The notes under the pieces were generated by a model. It ran no database searches. It was not told the DNA's origin and worked only from the letters and a program-made list of their open reading frames with translations. Shown in pieces: positions 746 through 7,590 of a stretch of DNA of 64,000 nucleotides. The first letter of the stretch is position 1. Each line of letters begins with the position of its first letter. The position numbers were made by a program, and so were the translations under genes. The stretch is from Byssovorax sp. (GTDB lineage Bacteria > Myxococcota_A > Polyangia > Polyangiales > Polyangiaceae): NCBI GenBank assembly GCA_025362495.1, contig JANYGI010000178.1, positions 1 to 64,000 on the forward strand, in the 5' to 3' direction.

Positions 746-2221
746 TCAGATCCGCTTCGTCCTCCCTCCACGGTCCTTTGCGGCCGGCGGCGGCGGCGGG
801 ACCAGGCCTTCCACGCTCCCCACGTGCCGCACCGGCCCGAGGCCGCCGAGCGCGCGGCCGACCTCGGCAACGCGCTCTTCGGTCTGGTTGCGACCGCGCA
901 TGTCACCCAGATAGCCATCCAGGGTGCTCGTCCCCTCCAGGATCGTCAGCGCGCCGAGCAACACATCGATGATCGATCGCGGATCGTCGATGCGCAGGAT
1001 CCGCTCGGCCGGGATCACCGTCGCCCACTGCTTCAGGATCACGTCGTCCGAGTACTGGGCATAAGGATCGTCGGCTCTGGCCGCGGGCGCGGGGCGCTTG
1101 GCCGCGGGATCGTGGTCGAACTCGTACACGACGACGTTGCTCGCCGGGCCGGTCTCGCCGCTCCGGGACACGGTGCCCTCGAAGTGCTTCACCTCGCCGC
1201 CGACCTCGATTTCGAGGCGAAAGTCGGTCGGCGTCTGGACAGGCTCCTTGAAGCCGTAGTTCTGCACCATGACGCGATAGCGGCCCTTCGGGGCGGTGCC
1301 CCTGGCCCAGCGCACGTTCTCGACCGGCTTCGCCGTCTCGCCCTGGATGTTCATGTCCACGTCGAGCCAGCCGCCGCAGGTCGACTTCTTGTGGCCGTAA
1401 AAGACCTCTTCGCCCGACGGCGGGATGACGTGGAGATCGAGATCGTTGCGGTTGTTCCAGAGGAGCGAGGCCCGGATGTCGACGTTGGCGTACTGGCCAC
1501 CTGCGGCCTCGACCCGGGTCTTGATCTCGGCGTCGATGTCGGCCTTGCGCTGCTCGATTCCCTTGTTCGGGTAGATGAAGAGCACGTGGAACTTCTCGTG
1601 GAGGCGGCGGAAGGCCTCGGCCGAGTCGAGATCGGCGGGGAGCTCGTCGCCGATGACGCGGCGGACCTGCTCGCGATCGACCTTCGGATAGAAGCCCTCG
1701 TCGCCGACGAAGAAGAAATACCCCTTCTTGCCGGTGCCTTTGGCGAGCCGCACGGCGTTGGTGCGCGAGTAGAAATAGGCGCAGAGCTCGTAGGACTCCT
1801 GCCCGGTGCCGCCGCCGCCCTCCTCGATCCAGACGCGCCCGAGGTTCTCGTCCATGCGGTTGTCGCCCTCGAACTGGCTCACCTGGAGGGGCGCCGCGTC
1901 GACGGTGGCGTCGCCGATCGCCGCGAAGCTGATACCCGGGTTGGGCACGTAGCCCTTGAGCTCGATCTGCCCCATCAGCATGGGAAGCTTCTCGTACATC
2001 AGCTTGGTGTCGTCACCGCGAGAGCGGGTGACGTCGAGCGCGACGACGATGGGCGTCTCGTTGTTGACCTCGCGCTTCTTGCCGAAGGGATCGAGCGCGG
2101 CGTGCACCGCCCGCCGCGTGGCCTCGCCGGCGCCGGGCGCGTGGGCGTCGAACGCGAAGGCGTCGGTCGTCGTCGAGCGGAACGTCTGCGCGACGTCTTG
2201 ACTGTAGAATCCACCACCCAT
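746..2221 (-). CDS. vWA-like domain plus DUF2135/YfaP-type domain protein
   Basis: A 491-residue cytoplasmic protein (no signal peptide). Residues about 55-225 look like a von Willebrand A fold: after a hydrophobic strand there is D63-V-T-R-S, a MIDAS-type D-x-T-x-S motif. Residues about 250-355 match the DUF2135/YfaP pattern (WNNRNDLDLHV...PSGEEVFYG...GGWLDVDMN). The C-terminus (about 390-491) is helical and ends in a Pro run and basic residues. A strong Shine-Dalgarno (AGAGGAG, about 10 nt upstream) supports the ATG at 2221. It starts 18 nt after the stop of the zinc-ribbon pseudokinase gene, so the two are surely co-transcribed. vWA proteins paired with kinase-like and zinc-ribbon proteins are typical of Ter-like stress or conflict modules. 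That role is an inference here. Confidence 0.8.
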   Translation of the reverse strand: MGGGFYSQDVAQTFRSTTTDAFAFDAHAPGAGEATRRAVHAALDPFGKKREVNNETPIVVALDVTRSRGDDTKLMYEKLPMLMGQIELKGYVPNPGISFAAIGDATVDAAPLQVSQFEGDNRMDENLGRVWIEEGGGGTGQESYELCAYFYSRTNAVRLAKGTGKKGYFFFVGDEGFYPKVDREQVRRVIGDELPADLDSAEAFRRLHEKFHVLFIYPNKGIEQRKADIDAEIKTRVEAAGGQYANVDIRASLLWNNRNDLDLHVIPPSGEEVFYGHKKSTCGGWLDVDMNIQGETAKPVENVRWARGTAPKGRYRVMVQNYGFKEPVQTPTDFRLEIEVGGEVKHFEGTVSRSGETGPASNVVVYEFDHDPAAKRPAPAARADDPYAQYSDDVILKQWATVIPAERILRIDDPRSIIDVLLGALTILEGTSTLDGYLGDMRGRNQTEERVAEVGRALGGLGPVRHVGSVEGLVPPPPPAAKDRGGRTKRI

Positions 2222-2239: not shown

Positions 2240-3688
2240 CTAGACGTCGAGAGCCACGAACTCGTGAGATCCAAAGACCTCTTCACGCAGGTTGTCGAGC
2301 TGCTTGTACATGTCCCACGCGTCGCCGGGGCGCCCGAGGGCGCTCTCGACGACGAAGAAGCGGAGGAAGCGCTGGACCCGCGGATCGATGGAGTCGGGCA
2401 GCGCGTTCGTCGCGGGATCGCCGCCGGCCGCGTAGATCATCGATTTGCCGAGCGAGTAGAGATCCGAGCTCGGCAGAGGGGGCTTGTGGTTGCGGGCCTC
2501 GGGAGGGCCATAGTCCTCGTTGAGGCAGCGGAACGTCTGCCCCGTCTTCGCGGGCTCGACGATGGCCCACGACCAGTCGACCAGCCACACGTTGTGATCG
2601 TGGGGGCGAACGACGATGTGCGCCGGCTCGACGTTCCCGTGGAGGATGCCATTCGAGTGCGCCCAGCCGAGGACGCTGAGCACCCGCCGCATGATCCAGA
2701 TGAGGTGCCTTTGCGGGACGCCGCCGGGGAGGCGCTCGCGCAGCGTGCAGACGTCGAGCCCGTCGAGGCGCTCGAACACCGTGCCGGTGCGATCGTCCGC
2801 GGTGCGCACCTGATCGAGCACCACCGGCAGGTGCTTTTGCTGCGGGCTCGCCACGGCGGTGAGGCGCTGGAGCGTGCGGACCTCGGCCTGGATCAGATCG
2901 TTGTCGGCGGCGTCGTCAGCGAGCTTGAGCACCACCTCTGCCTCCCGGCCGGCCGCCGGCGGTGTTCGCGAGCCGCCGTAGACCGTCGCCAGATCGCCGC
3001 GCGCTACCACGCTCGTCATGCGGTAGGAGCCGCCCTGGGCCTTGACCTCGAAGTCGACGGGCGCGGGCGCCGCGAGGCTCGCGGAGGTTGCACTCGAGGC
3101 CTCGGCGCGCGTCGCGGGCGTGGAGCCGACGAGCGTGAGGCCGATGGGGCGCCACTCGCCGTCGGCGTCGGTGATCACGCCGCCGTCGGCGTCGACGCCG
3201 AACGTGCTCCCGCTGTTGTCGATCACGCGCGCGCCGCTCTGATCGATGTTGACCACCTGGACGCGGGGCGCGCCGCCGATGCGGAACTGGATGGCTTCGA
3301 GGCGATGCTCTCTCGTCGCGCCGTCGGCCTCGGCGCAGTGGAGCGCGCCCCGGAGCTCTTCGTAGCCGGCCATCGAGGGGACGACGAAGATCGAGATCAC
3401 CGACGTTTGCCCGGCGGCGAGCGGCGTCGCGGCCGCGCCCGTGAGCGCGCCGAGGGCGCCCGCGTCGCACCGGATCTCGAGGCGCGTGAGGGGCGCGAGA
3501 CCGAGGTTCTCCACGCGCAGACGGAGCATGCAGCGGGTGCCGACCTCGAAGCGCCGGAGCGTGACGAGATCGAGGCTGAGGCCGACGGCGATGGGGTGTG
3601 CCTCCGCAGGCCGCTCGGCTCCGCATTTGCCGCAAAACGCAGCCCCGGGGCGGATCGGATCGGCACATTTGGCGCACGTGGTGGTCAT
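2240..3688 (-). CDS. Zinc-ribbon, beta-sandwich, kinase-fold (probable pseudokinase) protein
   Basis: 482 residues. An N-terminal zinc ribbon has C5, C8, C19 and C22. A predicted beta-rich domain follows (about 35-150), then a low-complexity linker and a Ser/Thr-kinase fold (about 218-460). The kinase part keeps a degenerate Gly-rich loop (VVARGDLATVYGG), the beta-3 lysine (VVLK255) and a candidate helix-C glutamate (E269). The catalytic loop reads HGNVEPAHI (350-358) instead of HRDLKPxN, so the catalytic Asp is Asn. The DFG position reads VDWSW (370-374). Phosphotransfer is therefore doubtful and a scaffolding or nucleotide-sensing role is more likely. It is the first gene of a two-gene minus-strand operon and diverges (97 bp) from the SPFH/zinc-ribbon gene, which also starts with zinc ribbons. 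Confidence 0.8.
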   Translation of the reverse strand: MTTTCAKCADPIRPGAAFCGKCGAERPAEAHPIAVGLSLDLVTLRRFEVGTRCMLRLRVENLGLAPLTRLEIRCDAGALGALTGAAATPLAAGQTSVISIFVVPSMAGYEELRGALHCAEADGATREHRLEAIQFRIGGAPRVQVVNIDQSGARVIDNSGSTFGVDADGGVITDADGEWRPIGLTLVGSTPATRAEASSATSASLAAPAPVDFEVKAQGGSYRMTSVVARGDLATVYGGSRTPPAAGREAEVVLKLADDAADNDLIQAEVRTLQRLTAVASPQQKHLPVVLDQVRTADDRTGTVFERLDGLDVCTLRERLPGGVPQRHLIWIMRRVLSVLGWAHSNGILHGNVEPAHIVVRPHDHNVWLVDWSWAIVEPAKTGQTFRCLNEDYGPPEARNHKPPLPSSDLYSLGKSMIYAAGGDPATNALPDSIDPRVQRFLRFFVVESALGRPGDAWDMYKQLDNLREEVFGSHEFVALDV

Positions 3689-3785: not shown

Positions 3786-6206
3786 ATGTCGAAGATGCCT
3801 TGCACGAGCTGTGGCCAGCCCAACGAGCCCGGCACCCGCTTCTGTACCCGCTGCGGTCACAACCTCGAACCGCGCGCCCACTGCCCGAGCTGCAACCACG
3901 CTCAGGCCGCGGGGAATCAGTTCTGCATGAGCTGCGGCGCGGCGATGGCGGGCGCGCGCTGGGAGCCGACGGATGACGGCGGCGCGGTGATCGGCGGCGT
4001 GTGGGAGCGCGGCGCGGACGAGCTGATCCGGCGCGTCGATCCCGAGGACTGCCGCACCTTCCTCGGCTCACGCACGGTGCGCGTGCCCCCGGGGACGATC
4101 GGCGTGGTGCTCGTCGACGGCCTCGTCGAGCGGATCTTGCCGCCGGGCGAGCAGACGAGCGTCTCGGTGTTCGAGCGGATCACCCGGTTTTTCTCGGGGC
4201 AAAGCGGTGATCGCACCGCGCTCTACCTCGTCGATCTGCGGCCTGTGCCCGTGCCCTTCGCGGTGCAGACGCGGCCCGACAAGAGCGGCGAGGCGGCGGA
4301 GACGCAGGTCGTCGTCTCGTTCAGCCTGCAGCGCGGCGACAAGGAGGGCATCGCCTCGTTCATCGCCAACGTGCTCGGCGCGCGCGCGGCGTACACGGCG
4401 CGCGATCTCTACGATCTGGTGCGCCCCGAGGTCAGCGCGCTCGCGACGCAGGCGCTGGAGCGGCTCGGGACGAGCGGCGCGTTCACCTACGACGCGGCGG
4501 AAGCCGCCATTCGCGTGGCGCTCGAGGCGCGGCTCGCGCGCTACGGATTCACGCTCGCCGTCACCGTCGCGCCGCTGACGACGACCACGAGCCTGAGCTT
4601 CTGCCTCGGCACCGGCGAGGCGCCCGAGGTGCGCCCGTGCACGAAGTGCAGCGCCGAGCTGCCGTCGTCGATGAAGTTCTGCGATCGCTGCGGCGCGCCT
4701 CAGCCGACGATGGTGAGCCCCGCGCGGGTGTGCTCGAAGTGCTCGACGCGCGTGGCCGCGAGCGACGGGTTTTGCAGCGCCTGCGGCACGATCTTCGTCG
4801 CGCCTCCGGCCACGGCGACGCCGCTCTTCACGGCCGACGGCGCCCGCGTGGAGATCGATCTCGTGGTGCGCGTGCAGGGCCAGCACGCCGACTTCACGGC
4901 CGAAAAGCTGGCGATCCCGCTCGTCGGGGCCGTCGCCGCGCACCTGCGCACCGTGACGTTCGCCGCGCTGGCGACGGCCGCGGGCTTCGCTGCGGCGGAG
5001 CAGGCGATCCGCGATGTCGCCGAGCAGGGCCTCGGGAGCTTCGGGCTCGTGCTGGTGGTCGCGGCGGTCGTCGACGTGCGCGACAAGCGCGGGCAGTGGA
5101 TCCTCGGCGCGCGGGCCGATCTCGCGCGCGCCCGCGACGAGGTGCTGCTCGGCCGCGAGTGGCTGAAGCAGCGCGCCGACGCCATCGATCTGGAAGAGCT
5201 GACGTTCGCGCAGAAGCTCGCGGCGCAGCGCGTGGAGCGTGAGGCGCGGCTCACGTCGCGCGCGGCCGAGCTCGAGGGCGGCCGTCGCGAGGCGGCGATC
5301 GTGGCCGACGACGCGTTCGGAAGAGATGAGGCGACGCTCGACGATCGCCGGCGGAGAGAGGCCCTGGAGGCCGCGCAGGCCGAGCTCGACAGCGCGCGGG
5401 CCGAGCGAGGCGCCTCGCGCGATCGCCGCGTCGCCGCCGCCGAGCAGTCGGTGGAGCTTGCAAAGAAGGCTTTTCGACGCGAAGGCGAGCTCGGCGATCA
5501 GGCCCACGCGGCGACGCTCGCGCGCGGCGCGCTCGATCTCGAGGCGGAGAAGCGCCGGCAAGCGATCGATCTCGGCTCGGAGGCGGCGCGGCGCGGCACC
5601 GAGGACGCGGCGCACGCGGCGCGGGCGCAGCGCGCCGTGGCCTTCGACGATCACGCGCGAAGAGCGCATCTGAGCGAGGAAATTGCGGCCGCAGAGCAGG
5701 CGCGAAAGCTGGCGAAGCTCGCGGCGATGGCCGAGCTCGATCGGAAGATGGCTGAAGAAGAGCACGCGCAGAAGCGCGAGCTGCGCGAGTCGCTCAAGGG
5801 CCTGTCGGAGCGCGAGATGATCGCCGCGCAGGCGACGGACCTCGCGAAGACCGAGGGCGGCGGGGCGGCCTGGGCCGCGGCGCTCGCGGGCGACGAGGCC
5901 CGGCGCGTGGCCGCCGAGCACGCGGCGAAGCTCGAGAACGTGATGGCGCAGCAGCTCGAGCGGCTCGAGCACCTGACGACCTCGGCGCTGGCGTCGGCCG
6001 CGCAGCGCGCCGGCGGCACCGATCACGTCTACGAGAGCTCGATGGAATCCATGGCGCGCGTGGCCGCGTCGCGCGCGGCACCGACGCCCGCGGTCGTCGC
6101 GGCGACGGTGACGGCCGCGCCGGGCACGGCTTGCAAGAACCCCGCGTGCCGCGCCGTGCTCGCTCCCGGCTCGCTCTTCTGCGGCACGTGCGGCGCGTCG
6201 CAATGA
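3786..6206 (+). CDS. SPFH-like coiled-coil protein with five zinc ribbons
   Basis: 806 residues. Two zinc ribbons sit at the N-terminus (C6/C9/C20/C23 and C33/C36/C47/C50). An SPFH/band-7-like domain covers about 60-280 (VPPGTIGVVLVDG..., followed by a helical segment of the flotillin type). Two more zinc ribbons lie at about 284-335. A second alpha/beta domain (about 345-440) resembles the end of an SPFH unit. A long Ala/Glu/Arg coiled coil covers about 445-750, and a fifth zinc ribbon ends the protein (CKNPAC...CGTC, about 783-803). No transmembrane segment is evident. SPFH proteins oligomerise at membranes; here ribbons at both ends suggest a large cytoplasmic scaffold. It faces the pseudokinase/vWA operon and is followed 16 nt later by the PurA paralogue. 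The exact function is unknown. Confidence 0.8.
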   Translation: MSKMPCTSCGQPNEPGTRFCTRCGHNLEPRAHCPSCNHAQAAGNQFCMSCGAAMAGARWEPTDDGGAVIGGVWERGADELIRRVDPEDCRTFLGSRTVRVPPGTIGVVLVDGLVERILPPGEQTSVSVFERITRFFSGQSGDRTALYLVDLRPVPVPFAVQTRPDKSGEAAETQVVVSFSLQRGDKEGIASFIANVLGARAAYTARDLYDLVRPEVSALATQALERLGTSGAFTYDAAEAAIRVALEARLARYGFTLAVTVAPLTTTTSLSFCLGTGEAPEVRPCTKCSAELPSSMKFCDRCGAPQPTMVSPARVCSKCSTRVAASDGFCSACGTIFVAPPATATPLFTADGARVEIDLVVRVQGQHADFTAEKLAIPLVGAVAAHLRTVTFAALATAAGFAAAEQAIRDVAEQGLGSFGLVLVVAAVVDVRDKRGQWILGARADLARARDEVLLGREWLKQRADAIDLEELTFAQKLAAQRVEREARLTSRAAELEGGRREAAIVADDAFGRDEATLDDRRRREALEAAQAELDSARAERGASRDRRVAAAEQSVELAKKAFRREGELGDQAHAATLARGALDLEAEKRRQAIDLGSEAARRGTEDAAHAARAQRAVAFDDHARRAHLSEEIAAAEQARKLAKLAAMAELDRKMAEEEHAQKRELRESLKGLSEREMIAAQATDLAKTEGGGAAWAAALAGDEARRVAAEHAAKLENVMAQQLERLEHLTTSALASAAQRAGGTDHVYESSMESMARVAASRAAPTPAVVAATVTAAPGTACKNPACRAVLAPGSLFCGTCGASQ

Positions 6207-6222: not shown

Positions 6223-7590
6223 GTGAGCGGCGGGCGGGCGCTCCTCGTCGTCGGCCTCGGGCTCGGCGATGAGGGCAAAGGCTCCGTCGTTGACGCCCTG
6301 GTACGACGTCACCAGGCGGCGACGGTGGTGCGCTTCAACGGCGGTCCGCAGGCCGCGCACCACGTCGTCTCGCCGGAGGGGAAGCTCCACTGCTTCTCGC
6401 AATTCGGCGCGGGGACGCTGGTCCCCGGCGTGCGCACGCACCTCGGGCGCTTCATGGCCGTCGATCCGCTCGCCCTCGCGCGCGAGGACGCGGCGCTGCG
6501 GGCGATCGGCGTGAGCGATGCTCTCGCGCGCCTCAGCGTCGATCCGCGCTGCGTCGTCGTCACGCCGGTGCACCGCGCGATCAACCGGATCCGCGAGCTC
6601 GCGCGGGGCGAGGCGCGCCATGGCAGCGTCGGCATCGGCGTCGGCGAGGCGCTGCTCGATGCGGAGAACGCGGCGCTGCCTTGCGTGCGCGTGGGCGACG
6701 CGCGCGATCCCGGGCGCCTCGGGGCGACGCTCCGCTTGCTGTGGCGGATGAAGATCGATCACGCCGAGCAGCTCGCCGCGCGCGGGAAAAACGCCGCGAT
6801 CGATCGCGAGCTGGCCTCGCTGCGTCGCCCCGAGCCGAATGAGCTGCTCGCGGCGTCGCTCGATCACCTGGTCCACGCGAGCGGCGCCTCGCTCTCCGAG
6901 GGCCCGGCCCTGGACGCCGGCAGAGTGACAGTCTTCGAGGGCGCGCAGGGCGTGCTGCTCGATCGCGATCACGGCTTCTTCCCCCACGTCACGCCGAGCC
7001 GGACCACCTTCGCCAACGCCGATGCTCTGCTGGCCGAGGCGCCGCGCGCCCTCGCGGTGACGCGGATCGGCGTGCTCCGGGCCTACGCGACCCGCCATGG
7101 AGAGGGCCCCTTCGTCACCGAAGACGCGGCGCTCACCGCGACGACTCCCGATCTCCACAACGGGGCAGCCGGCTTCCAGGGTGCCTTTCGCGTCGGCTGG
7201 TTCGACGTGGTCGCCGCGCGCTACGCCCTCCGCGTCGTGGGCGGCGTCGACTGGCTGGCGATCACCAACCTCGATCGTTTGGCCGGCCTGGCGCGCGTGA
7301 AGGTGTGCACGGCGTACGCGAGCGACGATGGTGGCGGGATCCTCCATGATTTGCCGATGAATTGCGGCGCACCAGCGATGTCGCCGGAGGCTGGCTCGGC
7401 GCTCACCCTGCTCCTGTCACGGTGCCGCCCCGTGTACACCGAGCTGCCCGGCTGGCGGTCGTCTGGCGATGTCGCGGCGAGCGCGTTCCTGCGCTTTCTG
7501 GAGTCGCCGGCGGCGCTGGGGACGCGCGTTGGAATGGCCTCGTGGGGGCCGCGCGCGGGGGACAAGGCTGCTATAGAGTGCTTGCAATGA
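6223..7590 (+). CDS. Divergent adenylosuccinate-synthetase (PurA) paralogue
   Basis: 455 residues, GTG start 16 nt after the SPFH gene. The PurA fold is clear: GDEGKG (15-20, with the Asp13-equivalent D16), an H46 equivalent of catalytic His41, FEGAQG (238-243), TRHGEGPF (290-297), GWFD and LPGW. Substrate-binding segments are strongly altered. The canonical GGxNAGHT is GGPQAAHH. The IMP-binding TTGRGIGPAY segment is GSVGIGVGEA. The aspartate/IMP loop GATTGRxRR is GAAGFQGAFR (314-323). The guanine-binding TKLD is TNLD. A housekeeping purA is expected elsewhere, so this copy probably couples a different nucleotide/amine pair, or binds without catalysis. It shares an operon with the SPFH gene and the downstream lipoprotein gene. 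Confidence 0.8.
   Translation: MSGGRALLVVGLGLGDEGKGSVVDALVRRHQAATVVRFNGGPQAAHHVVSPEGKLHCFSQFGAGTLVPGVRTHLGRFMAVDPLALAREDAALRAIGVSDALARLSVDPRCVVVTPVHRAINRIRELARGEARHGSVGIGVGEALLDAENAALPCVRVGDARDPGRLGATLRLLWRMKIDHAEQLAARGKNAAIDRELASLRRPEPNELLAASLDHLVHASGASLSEGPALDAGRVTVFEGAQGVLLDRDHGFFPHVTPSRTTFANADALLAEAPRALAVTRIGVLRAYATRHGEGPFVTEDAALTATTPDLHNGAAGFQGAFRVGWFDVVAARYALRVVGGVDWLAITNLDRLAGLARVKVCTAYASDDGGGILHDLPMNCGAPAMSPEAGSALTLLLSRCRPVYTELPGWRSSGDVAASAFLRFLESPAALGTRVGMASWGPRAGDKAAIECLQ
7571..7576 (+). promoter_or_regulatory. Possible -10 element (CTATAG) close to start
   Basis: CTATAG ends 10 nt before the ATG at 7587, inside the last codons of the PurA paralogue. It matches a pattern seen before many other starts in this window and could give the lipoprotein gene its own, nearly leaderless transcript. 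No -35 was identified. Confidence 0.35.

Follow-up and report, generated by a model that had tools for sequence, protein, structure and literature searches.

A putative PurA-fold ligase with rebuilt substrate pockets and its near-obligate vWA partner in large phages and some bacteria

The window, by which we mean the entire 64,000-nucleotide stretch of Byssovorax sp. DNA analysed here (contig JANYGI010000178.1), carries a PurA-like gene within a small module of genes (Table 1). This module is split in the window, with the vWA and kinase-like genes lying on the minus strand, and a divergent SPFH/zinc-ribbon gene being followed by the PurA-like gene. Together with an extra zinc-ribbon gene, the same layout is kept in genomes from two other Myxococcota families (G153 and, mirrored, G165). 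The kinase-like protein scores 431 bits against the kinase-like profile of the module, the seed of which includes this very protein, and the Band_7 match of the SPFH/zinc-ribbon protein is weak in the window and reaches 5e-9 in its homologue at locus L247. A first-pass annotation of this DNA had picked out the enzyme itself, though it missed the vWA partner, the kinase-like protein, and the SPFH/zinc-ribbon gene.

Table 1. Genes of the module in the window and active-site positions of the PurA-like protein (E. coli numbering refers to mature PurA)
Feature	Position	Strand	Remarks
vWA partner	746..2221	-	491 aa; N-terminus MGGGFYS; MIDAS-like DVTRS; inserted DUF2135-like beta domain
Zinc-ribbon protein with atypical kinase-like domain	2240..3688	-	HGN for HRD, DWS for DFG; Pkinase 4.2e-8
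Zinc-ribbon/SPFH (Band 7) coiled-coil protein	3786..6206	+	Zn ribbons; directly upstream of PurA-like gene
PurA-like enzyme	6223..7590	+	455 aa; GTG start, 16 bp past end of preceding gene
D16 (E. coli PurA D13), catalytic Asp, kept	6268..6270	+	D in 138/138 family; S in PurZ
Q43-A-A-H46: N38 replaced by Q, catalytic H41 kept	6349..6360	+	Q 136/138, H 138/138
V136 (E. coli T129, 5'-phosphate ligand), replaced	6628..6630	+	Family C 112, V 20, T 5 of 138; PurA T 26/26
EGAQG: E239 and Q242 (E221 and Q224), kept	6937..6951	+	138/138
H292 (E. coli V273), family-specific new His	7096..7098	+	Family H 138/138; PurA V 26/26
HNGAAGFQGAFR, replaced L-aspartate loop	7156..7191	+	T301 to Q, R303 deleted, R305 to F, R306 kept
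TNLD: guanine-contact D351 (D333) kept, K331 to N	7264..7275	+	D in 137/138

That the PurA-like protein belongs to the PurA superfamily is evident from its match to the Pfam family Adenylsucc_synt (PF00709; 8.8e-70, 236 bits against a cut-off of 27, residues 9-415), and yet it falls well short of both NCBIfam equivalog cut-offs for purA (178.9 against 395.6 bits for TIGR00184 and 210 against 402 bits for NF002223). An AlphaFold2 model, for which the input included 76 family sequences, has a pLDDT of 93.3 and a pTM of 0.93, and its closest solved structures are PurAs, with ligand-bound E. coli PurA (PDB ID: 1cg4) giving a Z-score of 44.3 for 405 residues at 2.2 Å. PurZ structures lie below PurA at a Z-score of about 34. 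Retention of the PurA fold along with D16, H46, and the FEGAQG motif, as had been read from the sequence at first pass, is thus borne out by a model with a pLDDT of 93 and a Z-score of 44 to the E. coli enzyme, with all of these residues present. The lack of any other purA in the genome had been named beforehand as evidence against a paralogue with a changed substrate. In fact, the host genome (10.8 Mb in 240 contigs) does carry a second and ordinary purA (G000:C166:102419-103672), which scores 549 bits as compared to 235 bits for the PurA-like gene. While the Pfam match and the fold are what one would expect of an ordinary second adenylosuccinate synthetase with a relaxed sequence, this explanation is barely credible given the ordinary purA already in the genome, the scores far below the purA equivalog cut-offs, and the family-wide absence of R303 and R305.

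To place the active-site residues, we aligned 138 family members (less than 62% mutual identity) with 26 ordinary PurAs and four PurZs, and numbered the columns by mature E. coli PurA; the family therefore has at least 138 non-redundant members. Apart from R303, the roles given here to the residues are those of established PurA enzymology. D13, K16, G17, H41, E221, and Q224 are unchanged in all 138 members, and nearly so are T239 (133), R306 (134), and D333 (137). On the other hand, N38, T129, R143, V273, T301, R303, and R305 are intact in each of the 26 PurAs and changed in the family. Accordingly, the window protein has the D13, H41, Q224, and P-loop K16 of a PurA, but not its ligands for the IMP phosphate (V and L for T129 and R143, the latter lost family-wide) or for L-aspartate (Q, a deletion, and F for T301, R303, and R305). 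At the aspartate loop, Gln occupies position 301 in 133 of the 138 members, the deletion of R303 is found in every one, and position 305 is Phe in 100 and Leu in 24. The signature of the vWA-linked family (Q38, H273, Q301, and the R303 deletion, with D13, H41, Q224, and D333 kept) is complete in the window protein. R303 contacts both the IMP 2'-OH and aspartate (PMC8342488).

Much of this had been anticipated in the first-pass annotation, which described the IMP segment and the aspartate loop as replaced; they indeed read GSVGIGVGEAL instead of GTTGRGIGPAY and HNGAAGFQGAFRVGW instead of GATTGRxRRTGW. Its further claim that the TKLD motif is replaced holds for the lysine, which is Asn in the window protein and Cys or His across the family (and is also absent from two of the 26 ordinary PurAs), but was overstated, as the guanine-contact aspartate is kept. 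Decay, also discounted at first pass, can be rejected as the cause, since identical replacements are common to 138 non-redundant relatives in which the catalytic core is kept, a pattern far beyond chance. As the catalytic and guanine side is retained while both small-substrate pockets are remodelled alike across the family, the alignment argues that the family is under selection for a new specificity.

Phylogeny points the same way as to the separateness of the family. In a tree of 88 proteins, a quick build with rows of uneven composition for which we rely on the main clades only, the family falls on a branch of its own (SH-aLRT 100), apart from the PurA (99) and PurZ (99) clades, and the window protein clusters with others from Myxococcota. 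Placement inside the ordinary PurA clade, which had been put forward as a ground for abandoning the idea of a changed substrate, is therefore not what the tree gives. Members of the family occur in large phages, Myxococcota, actinomycetes, and plasmids. In our Myxococcota census, they score at least 308 bits and ordinary PurAs about 250 bits and below, the exception being one divergent clade-B member.

PurZ is defined by a Ser (Gly in archaeal forms) at the catalytic Asp position (PMC12884076). Here, the window protein has D16, and while Ser is found in all four PurZs of our alignment, Asp is invariant in the family, which agrees with the earlier remark that a PurZ-type Ser is lacking. The analogy drawn at the time with PurZ does not hold by descent, PurZ being a separate clade in which the window protein is not placed, and from the Asp at position 13 and the tree position we rejected identity with phage PurZ. 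Nonetheless, a PurZ-like enzyme might still make a modified purine deoxynucleotide for phage DNA, and persist in bacteria as a relic or toward the same end. The superfamily is the same, many members are from phages, and both PHROG 1211 and phage annotators use the PurZ-type name '2-aminooxy adenylosuccinate synthetase'. However, besides the residue at position 13 and the separate clade, the aspartate loop is lost in the family, whereas PurZ also uses aspartate; moreover, neither DatZ/MazZ nor DpoZ is among the recurrent neighbours, and the genes are chromosomal in Myxococcota. We consider such a role to be very unlikely. A 2026 survey of viral PurA homologues set apart 151 PurZ-group sequences, and in the sections consulted describes no vWA link for the remaining ones (PMC12884076). 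Separately, we noticed two more and even more divergent PurA-like genes (L039 and L040) in a genome from the same family as that of the window (G031), both of which are without a vWA partner; that at L040 has a GSSGKG P-loop and, like PurZ, carries Ser in place of the Asp.

The more conspicuous property of the PurA-like gene is its company. Among viral contigs, a vWA gene is present in 78 of 80 loci found by a PurA-like profile scan, a PurA-like gene is present in 78 of 80 loci found by a vWA profile scan, and the four unpaired loci are all at contig ends. Searches of cultured phages gave identical groups for either protein (189 Mycobacterium, 10 Rhizobium, six Vibrio, and one Mycolicibacterium). 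Of 282 Myxococcota genomes, with related ones counted as independent, 28 have the PurA-like gene, 27 have the vWA gene, and 26 have both. No vWA gene was found near ordinary PurA at about 70 loci. The vWA protein is thus a near-obligate partner of the PurA-like enzyme. Nearly always, the vWA gene comes first and the PurA-like gene follows on the same strand, with a median gap of 12 bp. In the window, the vWA protein gives 365 bits to the family vWA profile, and its gene shares the locus with the PurA-like gene, although the two are divergent and 4 kb apart. One possible exception to the pairing is a 99% complete genome (G109:C135, locus L240) in which vWA and kinase-like genes are present and no PurA-like gene was detected.

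The family vWA protein is typically about 320 residues long and has a vWA fold (integrin-type vWA domains by Foldseek, 7e-8) with a conserved DxTGS metal motif, and the MIDAS-like metal site is intact in the partner. It matches no Pfam or NCBIfam family and corresponds to PHROG 2971, annotated as 'unknown function'. At its start, the motif M-G-x-[GST]-x-[WYF]-[SD] opens the conserved block. Our search pattern demanded Gly at position 2 and so fixed its presence in 160 of 160 sequences; what is informative is that an ATG immediately precedes this Gly in 151 of 160 and that conservation is lost upstream. Locus L310 is the one apparent exception to this motif. The DUF2135-like beta domain is an insert seen in a Myxococcota sub-lineage of the vWA protein (the window protein, L038, L247, L248, and L232), with DUF2135 itself matching weakly in the homologue at L038, and phage forms are without it. 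A different insertion, in frame and of about 254 residues before a conserved FIGDE block, is carried by the vWA gene of Mycobacterium phage LifeSavor (L342:3001-4779) and of other cluster C phages. From its weak Hint/intein matches, this is probably an intein carried by some phages but not by others.

In the protein encoded by a third gene of the module, an atypical kinase domain (HGA or HGN in place of HRD) accompanies a J-domain-like HPD motif or a zinc ribbon. This gene is found in 49 of 80 and in 34 of 80 viral loci, and at many loci the kinase-like protein is either absent or has diverged strongly. In a search with PADLOC for anti-phage systems, the PurA-like, vWA, and SPFH proteins were unmatched and the kinase-like gene was hit by generic kinase models only, and with nothing specific returned we rejected a known defence system. 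Likewise, no Ter domains were seen among the subset of locus neighbours scanned.

Beyond the module, certain neighbours recur. An NrtR-type Nudix gene adjoins it in Actinomadura, Streptomonospora, Herbidospora, Nocardiopsis, Methylobacterium, and several phages; regulators of this type sense ADP-ribose and control NAD genes (PMC9503650). Across the 80 PurA-anchored viral loci, we counted NAMPT at 11, NADAR at five, and an NMNAT-like gene at three, and recurrent neighbours also include TROVE/Ro60, RtcB, the HAD domain of RNA-repair proteins, a DNA/RNA-ligase-type protein, and an R2K ATP-grasp. Vibrio phage phiKT1024 has both NADAR and TROVE. In a reciprocal scan with the phage NAMPT protein, its own contig was the sole match. 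The link of the module to NAD or RNA repair is suggestive only, as these neighbours accompany a minority of loci and are in part restricted to certain clades, and it may be a loose one because large phages often carry such genes. Two other genes lie near the module in clade-B phages. A gene for an R2K-clade ATP-grasp, possibly a ligase, is found near the PurA-like gene (L269:7433-8185, where it comes directly after it, and 13 further viral loci), and another for a coiled-coil-like protein of about 123 residues without a Pfam match is found near the module (33 viral loci besides that of L277:5630-5998, where it immediately precedes the vWA gene).

Taking the residue pattern, the model, and the gene context together, we think it probable that the protein is a GTP-dependent PurA-fold ligase in which both small-substrate pockets are rebuilt, and that it serves as the enzyme of a module with the vWA protein as its near-obligate partner and a J-domain-like or kinase-like protein in many lineages. 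GTP would still phosphorylate a carbonyl oxygen of the acceptor, and an amine other than aspartate would then displace the phosphate. The loop, now shorter and neutral with Gln and Phe where PurA has Thr, Arg, and Arg, would suit a nucleophile that does not bear two carboxylates, and the loss of the phosphate ligands suggests an acceptor other than a plain 5'-mononucleotide. More speculatively, the vWA protein, in which a conserved Gly follows the Met, may present or supply the amine, and the acceptor could be tied to NAD/ADP-ribose or RNA-repair metabolism, as NrtR-Nudix, NAMPT, NADAR, TROVE, and RtcB recur beside the phage modules. A point against the ligase is that, in the window, the PurA-like gene lacks its vWA gene as an immediate same-strand neighbour. 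A bolder version would have GTP activate an oxo-purine or NAD-derived acceptor, which is then joined to the free N-terminal Gly of the vWA protein, the protein N-terminus replacing the alpha-amine of aspartate. We hold this to be improbable, though if true it would mean that giant phages and bacteria share a novel type of post-translational modification.

The main rival to a ligase is a GTP-driven switch or scaffold that performs no ligation and instead controls the vWA/J-domain-like pair much as a chaperone machine would, with the lost ligands reflecting a lost metabolic activity. The MIDAS-type vWA domain of the partner, the third protein with its J-domain-like HPD motif and an atypical kinase domain without the Asp of HRD, and the SPFH/zinc-ribbon neighbour in the window would all suit such a role, as would the fact that vWA proteins serve as cochaperones in other phage systems (PMC7824862). 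However, on the side of the acceptor pocket, Q224 and T239 persist and the family has acquired near-invariant residues of its own in H273 (138/138), Q38 (136/138), and Q301 (133/138), and since an unused pocket would be expected to drift, we find the switch doubtful.

As for its wider meaning, PurZ sets the precedent that a small change to PurA can rewrite genome chemistry, and here there is another branch of PurA, found in roughly 190 sequenced mycobacteriophages and many large phages, with an unstudied vWA protein as its near-constant partner. If the enzyme were to make a new nucleotide or modify a protein, it would add a metabolic or conflict system that annotation as adenylosuccinate synthetase currently conceals. 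With the cluster C mycobacteriophages, the PurA-like/vWA pair can be tested directly in a laboratory host that is safe to work with. A search of the literature linking PurA to vWA proteins, jumbo phages, NADAR, or NAMPT, with most subscription papers outside its coverage, gave no description of the pairing, and the gene module of this branch of the PurA superfamily, which is common to large phages and some bacteria, is apparently undescribed. The proteins themselves are already contained in PHROG 1211 and PHROG 2971 as far as phages are concerned, though the former lumps the PurA-like protein with other PurA homologues and the latter carries no assigned function for the vWA protein.

Among known systems, adenylosuccinate synthetase PurA from E. 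coli (PDB IDs: 1cg0 and 1cg4) is alike in fold (405 residues at 2.2 Å), P-loop D13 and K16, H41, Q224, and D333, whereas the family differs by the replacement or loss of T129, R143, V273, T301, R303, R305, and K331, and by having its own clade and a vWA partner. PurZ/PurZ0, the dGMP:aspartate ligase of Z-genome phages (PDB IDs: 6fm1, 7odx, and 7vf6), likewise belongs to the PurA superfamily, is common in phages, and has an altered substrate site; however, it has S13, falls in another clade, and has a lower structural similarity to the window model (Z-score of about 34). Lastly, MoxR-vWA and other vWA cochaperone systems resemble the module in having a metal-site vWA protein beside an NTPase, though here the NTPase is predicted to be a PurA-fold GTP-dependent enzyme and not a MoxR AAA+ ATPase.
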